Of a stretch of 64,000 bases of DNA, positions 33,716 through 38,939 are shown in pieces. Position numbers and translations under genes: made by a program. The notes below the pieces were generated by a model. The model saw nothing but the letters and a program-made list of their open reading frames with translations, ran no database searches and was not told the DNA's origin. The stretch is from Nonomuraea cypriaca (GTDB lineage Bacteria; Actinomycetota; Actinomycetes; Streptosporangiales; Streptosporangiaceae). The stretch spans positions 1-64,000 of the forward strand of contig NZ_JADOGI010000032.1 of assembly GCF_015645445.1 (NCBI RefSeq). Reading direction: 5' to 3'. Every line of letters starts with the position of its first letter. Within the stretch, counting starts at the first letter, position 1.

Positions 33716-33729
33716 TAGAACGTGTTCCA
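33716..33729. promoter_or_regulatory. KstR-type box in the GMD/glycosyltransferase divergent region
   Basis: TAGAACGTGTTCCA fits TNNAACNNGTTNNA and is palindromic except at one base. It is about 105 bp from the gmd start and 157 bp from the glycosyltransferase start. Confidence 0.6.
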
Positions 33730-33885
33730 CCGAACCACGCTCGGTTACGCCAACGTCGCAGTTCGCACGGCCTGTGGCGGCCGTTGTGAACAATTCCAGC
33801 CGACCTACCGAATGGTAGCCTTCTCGGACTAAGGTCATCTTTCACGGTACATGCCCGGATCTGGGCCTTACCGGCGGAGAAAGGG

Positions 33886-35139
33886 GTGTCCGTGCAGGAT
33901 CGAACGCTGCGGATCGCGCTGCTGTCCTACCGCAGCAAGCCGACCTGCGGCGGCCAGGGCGTCTACCTCCGGCACCTGAGCCGCGAACTGGTCGCCCTCG
34001 GGCACCACGTCGAGGTGTTCTCCGGCCAGCCGTACCCCGAACTCGACGAGGGCGTCATCCTGCGCGAGGTGCCCAGCCTCGACCTCTACCGCGACGAGGA
34101 CCCGTTCAGGACGCCCAAGCTGCACGAATACCGCGACTGGATCGACTGGCTGGAAGTCAGCACGATGTGGACGGCCGGTTTCCCCGAGCCGCTGACGTTC
34201 ACGCTGCGGGCCCACCGCGAGCTGAAGAAGCGGGCCGGCGACTTCGACGTCGTACAGGACAACCAGACACTGGGCTACGGCCTGCTGGGCATCCAGAAGC
34301 TGTTCCCCGTGGTGGGCACCATCCACCACCCGATCAGCGTCGACCGCCGCATCGAGCTCGAGGCCGCCGAGGGCGCGAAGAAGCTGACCATGCGCCGCTG
34401 GTACGGGTTCGTGAAGATGCAGTCCCGCGTCGCCCCCCGGCTCAGCCCGATCCTGACCGTCAGCGAATCGTCGCTGGCCGACATCCACCGCGACTTCAAC
34501 GTCCCCCAGGCGAACATGCGGCTCATCCCGCTCGGCGTCGACACCCGCTACTTCCACCCGCGCCCTGACAAGCCCAGGCGCAAGGGCTCGATCGTGGCGG
34601 TGGCCAGCGCGGACTCCCCCATGAAGGGCGTCGCGACGCTGCTGCGCGCCGTCGCGAAGCTCGCCACGGAACGCGACGTGCACCTCACCGTCGTCAGCAA
34701 GCCCACCCCCGGCGGCCCCACCGAGCAGCTCGTCCAGGAGCTGTCACTCCAGGACCGGGTACGTTTCGTGCACGGCATCTCCGACGACGAGCTGGGCGAG
34801 CTGATCTCCACCTCGGAGATCTCCGTCGTGCCGTCACTCTACGAGGGCTTCTCACTGCCCGCCGTCGAGCACATGGCCTGCGCCACCCCCCTGGTCGCCA
34901 GCCGTACGGGCGCGTTGCCCGAGGTCGTCGGGGACGCGGCCGTGCAGGTGCCGCCCGGCGACGCCGAGGAGCTGGCCACGGTGCTGCGCCGCCTGCACGA
35001 CTCCCCCGAGGAGCGCGAACGGGTCGGCCGGGCGGGATACGACCGGGTCATGGAGCGCTACACCTGGCGCGTCGTCGCGAAGAAGACCGTGGAGGCCTAC
35101 CGCGAGGCCATAGCCGAACGCAAGGAGAAACAGTGCTGA
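33886..35139 (+). CDS. GT4-family glycosyltransferase
   Basis: 417 residues from GTG 33886 (GGAG 6 nt upstream; GTG 33892 also possible). The N-terminal acceptor domain has SKPTCGGQGVYLRHLSRELV. The C-terminal GT-B donor domain carries PLGVDTRYFHP, then VVPSLYEGFSLPAVEHMACA with the nucleotide-sugar-binding glutamates. It overlaps the methyltransferase gene by 7 bp. Donor and acceptor are unknown; the divergent gmd suggests a GDP-deoxysugar donor. Confidence 0.85.
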   Translation: MSVQDRTLRIALLSYRSKPTCGGQGVYLRHLSRELVALGHHVEVFSGQPYPELDEGVILREVPSLDLYRDEDPFRTPKLHEYRDWIDWLEVSTMWTAGFPEPLTFTLRAHRELKKRAGDFDVVQDNQTLGYGLLGIQKLFPVVGTIHHPISVDRRIELEAAEGAKKLTMRRWYGFVKMQSRVAPRLSPILTVSESSLADIHRDFNVPQANMRLIPLGVDTRYFHPRPDKPRRKGSIVAVASADSPMKGVATLLRAVAKLATERDVHLTVVSKPTPGGPTEQLVQELSLQDRVRFVHGISDDELGELISTSEISVVPSLYEGFSLPAVEHMACATPLVASRTGALPEVVGDAAVQVPPGDAEELATVLRRLHDSPEERERVGRAGYDRVMERYTWRVVAKKTVEAYREAIAERKEKQC

Positions 35140-35843
35140 CCGTCGACTTCGCCAGGCTCCACGTAGGCCCCGGCGTACGCGTGCTCGACCTGGGCTGCGG
35201 CGGCGGCAGGCACGCCTTCGAGGTGCTGCGCCGGGGGGCGGACGTGACCGCGTTCGACATGGACCAGTCGGAGCTGGACAGCGTGGCGGCCATGTTCGCG
35301 GCGATGGACAAGGCGGGCGAGGTGCCCCCGGGGGCAACCGCCGAGACCGTTCAGGGCACGGCGCTCGACATGCCGTTCGATGACGGCACCTTCGACCGGA
35401 TCATCGCGGCCGAGGTCCTGGAGCACATCCCCGACGACATGGCGGCCATGCGCGAGATCTTCCGCGTGCTCAAACCCGGCGGAACGACCGCCGTGACCGT
35501 GCCGAGCTTCCTGCCCGAGCGGATCTGCTGGGCGCTGGACGAGGACTACCACACGGCCCCCGGGGGACATGTCCGGATTTATACGTTGGCTGAGTTGTCC
35601 GCCAAGCTGAAGTCCACCGGGTTCGAGATCGGCCCCCACCACCACGCCCACGGGCTGCACGCGCCGTACTGGTGGCTCAAGTGCGCGGTCGGCGTCAACA
35701 ACGACGAGCACCCGCTCGCGAAGGCATACCACGAGTTGCTGGTCTGGGACATCATGAAGCGCCCTGCGGCGACCAGGATCGCCGAGACCGTGCTCAATCC
35801 GATCATCGGCAAGAGCCTGGTCCTCTACGTCAGAAAGCCATGA
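35133..35843 (+). CDS. Class I SAM-dependent methyltransferase
   Basis: 236 residues from GTG 35133, inside the end of the glycosyltransferase gene. Motif I is VRVLDLGCGGGRHAFEVLRR, motif II FDMDQSELD, and the Methyltransf_11 post-motif is FDRIIAAEVLEHIPDD. The C-terminal part (MKRPAATRIAETVLNPIIGK) suggests an amphipathic, possibly membrane-associated end. It is coupled to both neighbours by overlaps and is likely to modify the product of the adjacent glycosyltransferase. Confidence 0.85.
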   Translation: MLTVDFARLHVGPGVRVLDLGCGGGRHAFEVLRRGADVTAFDMDQSELDSVAAMFAAMDKAGEVPPGATAETVQGTALDMPFDDGTFDRIIAAEVLEHIPDDMAAMREIFRVLKPGGTTAVTVPSFLPERICWALDEDYHTAPGGHVRIYTLAELSAKLKSTGFEIGPHHHAHGLHAPYWWLKCAVGVNNDEHPLAKAYHELLVWDIMKRPAATRIAETVLNPIIGKSLVLYVRKP

Positions 35844-36969: not shown

Positions 36970-38061
36970 ATGAAATCCGGTGCGCCGCCGATGAACGGCG
37001 CATTGGGGTTACTAGCTTCGGGAGTGGCCGTACGAGGCGTCTTCGGGGGAAGCGTGGGCGACACGGGCACAACATCGTTCTTGGACCAGGCTGGGACCGA
37101 GCCGACACCGGGACCGACACTGAGCGCGGCCAAGAGGCTGCGGAGGTTTCTGGTCAAGGATCCGCTGGAGTCCGATCTGAGTCGGCGGAGGTTCCGGCTG
37201 AGGAATGGAGCTTCTCGGGCAGTATTCACCGATGCCGAAAAATCGTATGTTTTCGGCTTCAACGCAGTGATGTCGCGGGAAGTCGAGAAAATCGAGGAAA
37301 TTTCGCCTGGGCAGCGGCCTTTCGGTTACGAGGGCGCCGCGGCGGCCTGCACCGTACTCGATCTTCTTACGCTGACCCGGGGCCGGCGCCTTCACGAGCT
37401 ACTTGCCGGCCCCGCCCAGCATCACCGGCACGCCGCCTACCTGGGCGCCGGCCGCGGATACGCGCTGCTGTGCCTGCGGCCCGCACGCGGCGCGCGACGC
37501 GCTCACCCGCTGCTGCGGTGGCTGGCCATGGACGGGTTCGGCTTCCAGTGGAGCCTGGCCAGGGCCGACCGGATGGTGGGCGAGCGGACGATGCCCCGCC
37601 TGCTCAGCCGGGCCCACTGCGCGATCTTCGACCAGGGGCTCGGCCGGCTGCTCTGGTACCACGACTCCGCCTCGCCCGACGACGTCGGCGCCAGGGTCGG
37701 GGCCTACCCGGCGGGGCGGCGGGCCGACCTGTGGAGCGGGGTCGGGTTCGCGGCCACGTACACGGGTGGGGCCGAGTCCGACGAGCTCTGGCGGCTGACC
37801 GAGCACGCGGCGTCCGACGGGTTCCGTGCCCACCTGGCGCAGGGGTGCGCGTTCGCCGTGGCCGCCCGGCTGCGGTCGGGTGCGCTGCCCGGCCACACGG
37901 CGCAGGCCGTGCCGCTCCTGGCCGACGCTGCCCCGGAGGAGGCGGCCTCGTGGACCGACCGGGCGCTCATCGCGCTCGGGCACGAGGCGCACACGCACGA
38001 CGACTTCCGGCGCTGGCAGGCCCACACCCGCCGCTCATGGAACCGCCGCCACCACCACTGA
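36970..38061 (+). CDS. DUF1702 family protein
   Basis: Up to 363 residues; ATG 36970 is the first candidate start, and the conserved part begins near residue 50. DUF1702 features are RRFRLRNGASRAVFTDAEKS, YVFGFNAVMSREVEK, PFGYEGAAAACTVLDLLTL, HAAYLGAGRGYALL and LLRWLAMDGFGFQ. Members occur next to enediyne and other natural-product genes, with unknown biochemistry. It starts 47 bp after the cyclase-like gene. Confidence 0.7.
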   Translation: MKSGAPPMNGALGLLASGVAVRGVFGGSVGDTGTTSFLDQAGTEPTPGPTLSAAKRLRRFLVKDPLESDLSRRRFRLRNGASRAVFTDAEKSYVFGFNAVMSREVEKIEEISPGQRPFGYEGAAAACTVLDLLTLTRGRRLHELLAGPAQHHRHAAYLGAGRGYALLCLRPARGARRAHPLLRWLAMDGFGFQWSLARADRMVGERTMPRLLSRAHCAIFDQGLGRLLWYHDSASPDDVGARVGAYPAGRRADLWSGVGFAATYTGGAESDELWRLTEHAASDGFRAHLAQGCAFAVAARLRSGALPGHTAQAVPLLADAAPEEAASWTDRALIALGHEAHTHDDFRRWQAHTRRSWNRRHHH

Positions 38062-38303
38062 ACCACCGCCTCCCCCCCGGCCCGCACCGCCGCCGGACCC
38101 GCAGCACCCGCCCAGGGGCCGGCGCCTCTGTCAGCCCGGGGCGTTCGTCCGGGATTCCAGGACCGCGACGAGCTGGTTGAGCCCGTCGACGATCTGCTCG
38201 CGCCGCTCCCCGGTCATGCCGACCGCGCCCTCGTCGGGTACGTCGGCATGCTGGCCGCCCTGCTGCTCTCCCGCCCCTGGCGAGGCCGGGGAGAGGCGGG
38301 CGG

Positions 38304-38939
38304 CTAGATCCCCTGGCCGACGCGTTCGAGGACGCGCAGCGAGCCCTTCACCGCCACCTCGCCGAACGCGCCGGACTCCAGCGCCCGCCGATAGACCCGG
38401 TACGGCGCCTGCCCGCCGTCGGCGGGATCGGGGAAGACGTCATGCAGGACCAACGCCCCGCCCGGCACGACGTGCGGCGCCCAGCCCTCGTAGTCGCGGG
38501 TCACCGGCTCCTCGGAGTGCCCGCCGTCGATGAACAGCATCCCCAGCGGCGTGTTCCACAGCTGGGCGACCTGCTCCGACCGTCCGACGATCGCGATGAC
38601 CTCCTCCTCCAGCCCCGCCGCCAAGATCGTGGTCCGGAACGTCGGCAGCGAGTCCATCTTGCCGAACCGGGGGTCGACCAGCGTCGGATCGTGGTGCGCC
38701 CACCCCGGCTGGATCTCCTCGGACCCGCGGTGATGGTCCACCGTGACCACCACGGACCCGACCTCCCTCGCCGCCGCACCGAGATAGATCGCGGACTTGC
38801 CGCAGTAGGTGCCGATCTCGCAGATGGGACCGAGCCCGCCGTACCGGCAGGCCGCCTCGAACAGGGCCAGACCCTCCTCCGGCGGCATGAATCCCTTGGC
38901 GTGCTTGGCTGCGTAGAGCAGGCGTGACGGCATCGTCAT
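38304..38939 (-). CDS. Class I SAM-dependent methyltransferase (Methyltransf_24 type)
   Basis: 211 residues from ATG 38939. The SAM-binding part is [20 protein letters not shown], followed by [14 protein letters not shown] second acidic motif is [20 protein letters not shown]. This family includes sugar and macrocin-type O-methyltransferases. It faces the DUF1702 gene tail to tail and may belong with the same uncharacterised group. Its upstream side shares a 79-bp gap with the KstR-controlled flavin enzyme gene. Confidence 0.78.

Follow-up and report, generated by a model that had tools for sequence, protein, structure and literature searches.

The 64-kb stretch of Nonomuraea cypriaca DNA analyzed here (the window) contains a group of genes between positions 32592 and 38939 that we read as a locus for 3-O-methylmannose polysaccharide (MMP), placed under a KstR-type repressor, with a rough probability of 0.8. 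The members of the group were checked as open reading frames and against family models; every gene was found open, and all but the one at 35840 to 36922 gave a clear family-model match. The enzymes could be identified, as predictions, from their solved homologues, the operator is conserved among relatives, and a KstR-like regulator gene is linked to the locus across most of the order. The locus comprises the following features:

32592 to 33623, minus strand: gmd-like NDP-sugar dehydratase, divergent from manT, an accessory gene outside the MMP core
33716 to 33729, plus strand: KstR-type operator TAGAACGTGTTCCA, between gmd and manT in their divergent promoter
33886 to 35139, plus strand: manT, predicted GT4 alpha-(1->4)-mannosyltransferase with GDP-mannose as donor (match to PDB 7qsg)
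35133 to 35843, plus strand: pmeT3, putative 3-O-methyltransferase of the class I methyltransferases (Methyltransf_11)
35840 to 36922, plus strand: mmpH, predicted MMP alpha-(1->4)-endomannosidase (match to PDB 7qsj)
36970 to 38061, plus strand: DUF1702 protein (PF08012, E 1.2e-63), an optional neighbour between mmpH and meT1
38304 to 38939, minus strand: meT1, predicted MMP 1-O-methyltransferase (Methyltransf_24; match to PDB 6g7d/6g80/6h40)
38997 to 39010, plus strand: KstR-type operator between meT1 and the PPOX, ferredoxin and ADH genes, which lie beyond it on the plus strand

The genes manT, pmeT3 and mmpH form a tight block (33886 to 36922), in which manT overlaps pmeT3 by 7 nucleotides (nt) and pmeT3 overlaps mmpH by 4 nt (ATGA). 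A previous interpretation made from the letters alone, the sequence-only reading, had described a divergent gmd, an overlapping glycosyltransferase, methyltransferase and third gene, a DUF1702 gene and a convergent methyltransferase, all of which were found in these places. The gmd-like product scored 399.8 bits against TIGR01472, the GDP-mannose 4,6-dehydratase model, which is under the cut-off of 415, and it exceeded the cut-off of PF16363.

Comparison with proteins of solved structure carries the enzyme assignment. The meT1 product matched PDB 6g7d, 6g80 and 6h40 (E 1e-76; 59.8% identity over 199 pairs), entries recorded in the database as a methyltransferase that we take to be MeT1. The manT product matched 7qsg with an E value of 7.7e-141 and the mmpH product matched 7qsj with an E value of 8.7e-118 (55.3% identity over 304 aligned pairs), these being ManT and MmpH of M. 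hassiacum in the available passages of PMC9883506. The family models gave only weak matches for mmpH, to alpha/alpha-barrel glycosidase families and oxidosqualene cyclase. The product of pmeT3, which the same passages term putative, its enzyme activity not having been shown, is 54–60% identical to that of the gene in the same position in loci L220–L243 of family f6, which we infer from sequence to be Mycobacteriaceae and in which MMP is proven. Three of the four core proteins have counterparts of solved structure in the MMP pathway, which makes the pathway assignable to MMP; at the level of sequence this settles the predicted enzyme set as the known MMP pathway with all four genes. The earlier statement that nothing here matches a known pathway is therefore not supported, and the products can be assigned to a known cluster.

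The residues on which these enzymes depend are largely maintained. ManT activity needs a catalytic His, a Lys and two Glu (PMC9883506), and the window residues H147, K247, E320 and E328, equivalent to H142, K240, E313 and E321 of M. hassiacum as read from the 7qsg alignment, are invariant columns in alignment A1 of 14 sequences. In MmpH, D47, E262 and E265 (M. hassiacum numbering) were kept in 80/80 relatives and in the window, where the catalytic base E262 and the acid candidate D47 correspond to E248 and D32. Asn replaces Asp at position 50 in 46 of the 80 homologues (N35 in the window), and in the window protein H and Y take the places of F102 and W315. The choice between Asp47 and Asp50 as the acid is left undecided in the passages of PMC9883506, though one figure labels Asp47 as the putative acid; the invariance of Asp47, set against the frequent Asn at position 50, favours Asp47 as the probable catalytic acid. 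Among the best 80 of 582 named relatives, the window ManT is 92–95% identical to Nonomuraea proteins.

MmpH was detected in 98 of the 101 sampled genomes of the order and in 48 of the 296 genomes of the phylum sample, with the own genome counted in both and one marginal partial match (G254) in the latter. Synteny was compared in 60 of the 98 loci (L031–L090), selected for spread and all chosen as mmpH-positive; the order manT-pmeT3-mmpH was constant in 60/60, so the expected co-conservation of the three overlapping genes was borne out within this preselected set. The gene meT1 lay inside the fetched stretch in 30/32 loci of L031–L062, 7/7 of L063–L069 and 11/21 of L070–L090. A gmd gene adjoins manT in all 32 loci of L031–L062; it was not detected in loci L063–L090 or L140–L159, where the core genes are present, and the DUF1702 gene was found in 11/32 loci of L031–L062. 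Both were therefore rejected as core parts.

The window carries four exact TNNAACNNGTTNNA boxes (at 14389, 28708, 33716 and 38997), against 0.09 expected by chance. The KstR-type box that had been noticed earlier in the divergent promoter is the copy TAGAACGTGTTCCA at 33716–33729, which is exact at the gmd/manT promoter in 31/32 relatives (L031–L062), the exception being L037, which carries GAGAACGCGTTCTA; the second box of the locus, at 38997, had been overlooked. For a wider survey upstream of manT, 214 loci were gathered, 213 with enough upstream sequence and 193 of them distinct, and exact boxes in the 420 nt before the gene were scored, with the pattern read backwards as the control. Only exact matches were counted; at one mismatch the backward control also matches 32/33 loci of genus g33 (probably Streptomyces), because the box itself apparently contains TTG. 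Exact boxes were obtained in 86/193 distinct loci versus 0/193 for the control, with 31/33 in g33, 29/30 in named-isolate Streptosporangiaceae and 23/24 in unnamed Streptosporangiaceae, while Actinomadura-like loci contributed 0/6, other named loci 1/46 and the other phylum 0/11. The gene meT1 belongs to the same pathway but is transcribed separately, and within 300 nt upstream of it an exact box was likewise found in 61/114 loci (control 0/114), including 24/30 unnamed and 15/17 named Streptosporangiaceae loci. In all 31 g33 loci whose manT box is exact, a TANNNT hexamer begins 16–17 nt after it; the box would therefore overlie the -35 region of manT, as suits a repressor.

A number of further operator sites were observed. 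The own genome harbors other KstR-type box sites outside this locus (L132–L139), which were compared with the genes of the window, and the g33 locus L183 has a degenerate, non-exact manT box, its 1.5 kb of upstream sequence containing no KstR-like gene. In three Gordonia/Williamsia loci (L349, L350 and L353), the box precedes a ferredoxin/ferredoxin-reductase-like gene on the same strand that runs into manT or ends just before it; no such box was seen in the loci of Rhodococcus, Nocardia and Tomitella that belong to this set. The pattern TNNAACTTGTTCTA occurs once per genome in 12/12 g33 genomes, which had hinted at a regulator serving manT alone. With the looser TNNAACNNGTTCTA, the manT site was matched in 8/8 g33 genomes together with 1 to 10 further sites per genome (a palindromic site scores twice, once per strand; the backward control gave 0 to 3 matches per genome), some of them less than 20 kb from manT, and the claim of dedication was dropped because of these other matches. 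In G271 and G441, the other TNNAACNNGTTCTA matches are all of the TTCAAC type.

The candidate regulator lies, with steroid-type genes, in the first half of the window:

12391 to 13041, plus strand: KstR-like TetR regulator, probable repressor (PDB KstR, E 6e-31)
14434 to 15549, plus strand: steroid 3-ketoacyl-CoA thiolase (NF005889, 587.9 bits, cut-off 515), with the exact box at 14389
28708 to 28721, plus strand: KstR-type operator upstream of CYP125
28762 to 29946, plus strand: CYP125-type steroid C26-monooxygenase (PDB CYP125 entries, E 5.1e-148 to 1.5e-100)

A one-mismatch box is located upstream of the regulator gene itself, at 12243. Linkage between such regulators and the MMP genes is widespread: a KstR homologue and mmpH share one contig in 84 of 92 genomes of the order, all within 57 kb and at a median of 6 kb, and lie on different contigs in the remaining eight. 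In g33, of which the 30 best-matching of 101 genomes were compared, 29/30 loci have a KstR-like gene facing away from manT, with an exact box in 28, and each of 12/12 g33 genomes holds exactly one KstR-family match (E <= 1e-20), adjoining manT. The same divergent arrangement was observed in 4/5 Saccharopolyspora-type and two Nocardioides loci, where one-mismatch boxes were recognized by eye, and the KstR-like gene is less than 2 kb from manT in 8/8 Nocardiopsis-like loci. In Nocardiopsis-like loci (L071–L090), the MBL-fold family of window 50242–51303 recurs between the KstR-like gene and manT. In PDB comparisons with the KstR-like regulators, entries for KstR itself ranked first or among the first.

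Genes of the steroid side-chain type extend from 7541 to 29946 in the window and comprise a lipid-transfer thiolase, presumably resembling Ltp2, an acyl-CoA dehydrogenase, the KstR-like gene, the steroid thiolase, which we take to be FadA5, and CYP125. A steroid thiolase over the cut-off was found about 25 kb or less from manT in 9/12 g33 genomes; no match at E <= 1e-120 was obtained in the other three (G271, G346 and G441) or in 8/8 Nocardiopsis-like genomes. The KstR-like gene is retained in the thiolase-less genomes, and the three of g33 also retain the manT box, which argues that the control of MMP is not a by-product of the steroid genes, although the absence of the thiolase is no proof that steroid catabolism is lacking. 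In 16 of the 18 rows listed for Actinomadura-like loci (rows with a gap of 600 or more were left off the list), manT starts 21–106 nt after the end of the last CYP125 gene, and in several of these loci a box precedes the CYP125 genes, which suggests that CYP125 and manT form one operon there. Elsewhere in the window, 40805–42157 encodes a Fic-like protein (NF046030, E 2.2e-15) and 29976–31025 shows a weak MTES_1575 nuclease match, under its cut-off.

From these data, the following course of events is proposed. By homology, ManT would add alpha-(1->4)-mannose from GDP-mannose onto short oligomannosides, pMeT3 would 3-O-methylate the newly added residues, MeT1 would cap the 1-OH end, and MmpH would cleave the mature polymer into pieces that serve as primers for further chains. 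The KstR-like TetR protein, probably that of 12391–13041, would bind the boxes at 33716 and 38997 and silence manT-pmeT3-mmpH and meT1, and would be released once an acyl-coenzyme A (acyl-CoA) or steroid-CoA ligand builds up, so that a polymer proposed to hold acyl-CoA would be made when such acyl-CoAs are abundant. The ligands of KstR are steroid intermediates in the form of CoA thioesters. The enzymatic part of this scheme resembles the recycling described in PMC9883506, where MmpH cleaves the mature polymer, ManT lengthens the pieces with GDP-mannose, MeT1 caps and pMeT3 presumably 3-O-methylates, and MMP is proposed there to sequester fatty acyl-CoA; acyl-CoA-triggered derepression of an acyl-CoA-holding polymer would be the simplest reading.

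Several results weigh against an MMP locus under KstR-type control, or narrow its reach. An exact manT box was found in 0/24 loci of f6 and in 2/19 of L070–L090 (Nocardiopsis-like and others), several of the latter having TAGAATNNGTTCTA-type variants about 1.3–1.6 kb upstream, near the KstR gene; it was also absent from five loci of metagenome-assembled genomes in which gmd adjoins manT (L303, L304, L306, L308 and L343) and from all four loci titled as metagenome-assembled Streptosporangiaceae, both sets being counted among the 46 other named loci. The meT1 box was absent in g33 (0/4), L070–L090 (Nocardiopsis-like, 0/9), f6 (0/4) and the other phylum (0/11). The TANNNT hexamer in 52 Streptosporangiaceae loci is at offset 17 in 20 and at offset 22 in 17, with six having both and 21 neither. 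As for the regulator, the window protein scored 140.8 bits against NF033703, under the KstR equivalog cut-off of 280, and the proteins of 12 g33 genomes scored 188.3–202 bits, also below it, so these regulators are named only KstR-like. In the regulator tree, a long branch separates the Streptosporangiales proteins from those of f6, g33, Saccharopolyspora and Nocardioides, so that these regulators may not be one-to-one orthologues of KstR. Moreover, some boxes may serve neighbouring genes, as the loci often lie among steroid-type genes.

In an unlikely alternative, the locus does make MMP, and the box at 33716 serves only gmd or reflects the steroid neighbours, with manT as a bystander. The divergence of gmd from manT in 32/32 loci (L031–L062), a conserved GAATGTAC element, located towards gmd, that could be a gmd -10 element, the KstR-like, steroid thiolase and CYP125 genes sharing the window, and the proximity of the thiolase to the MMP locus in nine of 12 g33 genomes are all consistent with it. 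However, gmd was undetected in the g33 loci (sets of 4 and 30), where both the box and the KstR-like gene are present; meT1, though a separate unit, is preceded by a box as well in more than half of its loci (61/114); and the three g33 genomes without the thiolase retain regulator and operator alike.

Somewhat less probable still is that the enzymes make another product, either a different methylated mannan or a 6-deoxy-sugar variant involving gmd. The Asn at MmpH position 50 in 46/80 homologues, the H and Y that replace F102 and W315 in the window, and the adjacent gmd-like gene would agree with this, but ManT, MmpH and MeT1 are all near studied enzymes, their essential ManT and MmpH residues are kept except for D50, Streptomyces griseus makes an acetylated MMP (PMC9883506), and gmd is undetected in L063–L090 and L140–L159 despite the core genes. 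The product suggested by the sequence-only reading, a methylated deoxysugar on a terpenoid or sterol-like lipid formed with a cyclase, is very improbable. It had the adjacency of gmd and a weak NCBIfam match of 35840–36922 to oxidosqualene cyclase (E 4.9e-5) on its side, but that match (TIGR03463) reached 21.8 bits against a cut-off of 851, and an oxidosqualene or terpene cyclase identity was rejected; the supposed cyclase is a homologue of the endomannosidase at E 8.7e-118 and keeps its base and the acid candidate D47.

Beyond the window, the MMP genes of several non-mycobacterial lineages appear, from sequence, to be members of a KstR-type regulon. We tentatively propose, at slightly less than even odds, that in several orders of Actinomycetota, and also in genomes that lack the thiolase, the synthesis of MMP may be regulated by KstR-type repressors, as part of an old role as acyl-CoA sensors in control of a polysaccharide that holds acyl-CoA; if this is true, steroid catabolism would be the part, best known from mycobacteria, of what the 'cholesterol' repressor family does. 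The role and control of MMP are poorly understood, and near-universal genes in one order are here tied to a KstR-type switch, which makes it directly testable in soil bacteria whether MMP is made in response to acyl-CoA or steroid-CoA. The enzymes are known, and the KstR-type regulation of MMP genes looks new. Literature searches, with subscription papers mostly outside their reach, found no published report of a link between KstR and MMP, and the main text of two Nocardioides transcriptome papers (PMC7593942 and PMC7807495) contains no glycosyl, methyltransferase or mannos- terms. The genes Rv0223c–Rv0225, considered as a possible parallel, led nowhere.

MMP is treated mainly in mycobacteria in the passages of PMC9883506, and a comparison with the known systems places the window as follows. 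Its four core genes are the same as those of the mycobacterial cluster meT1-mmpH-pmeT3-manT of M. hassiacum and M. smegmatis (MSMEG_6481–6484; PMC9883506), with manT-pmeT3-mmpH codirectional and meT1 facing them, as in 4/5 of the f6 loci compared. Unlike that cluster, the window has boxes in both promoters, against 0/24 at manT in f6, together with DUF1702 and gmd neighbours and an Asn in place of MmpH D50. The acetylated MMP of Streptomyces griseus comes from a non-mycobacterial producer, and the Fig. 1 legend of PMC9883506 is silent on its regulation. The passages of PMC1995591 on the KstR regulon in M. smegmatis and M. tuberculosis name no MMP gene, though a motif is predicted for MSMEG_6475, whose number is close to those of the MMP genes. 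The window shares with that regulon the operator motif, a KstR-like TetR protein, CYP125 and the steroid thiolase; it differs in that its regulator falls below the equivalog cut-off and in that its own regulon would include the MMP genes.

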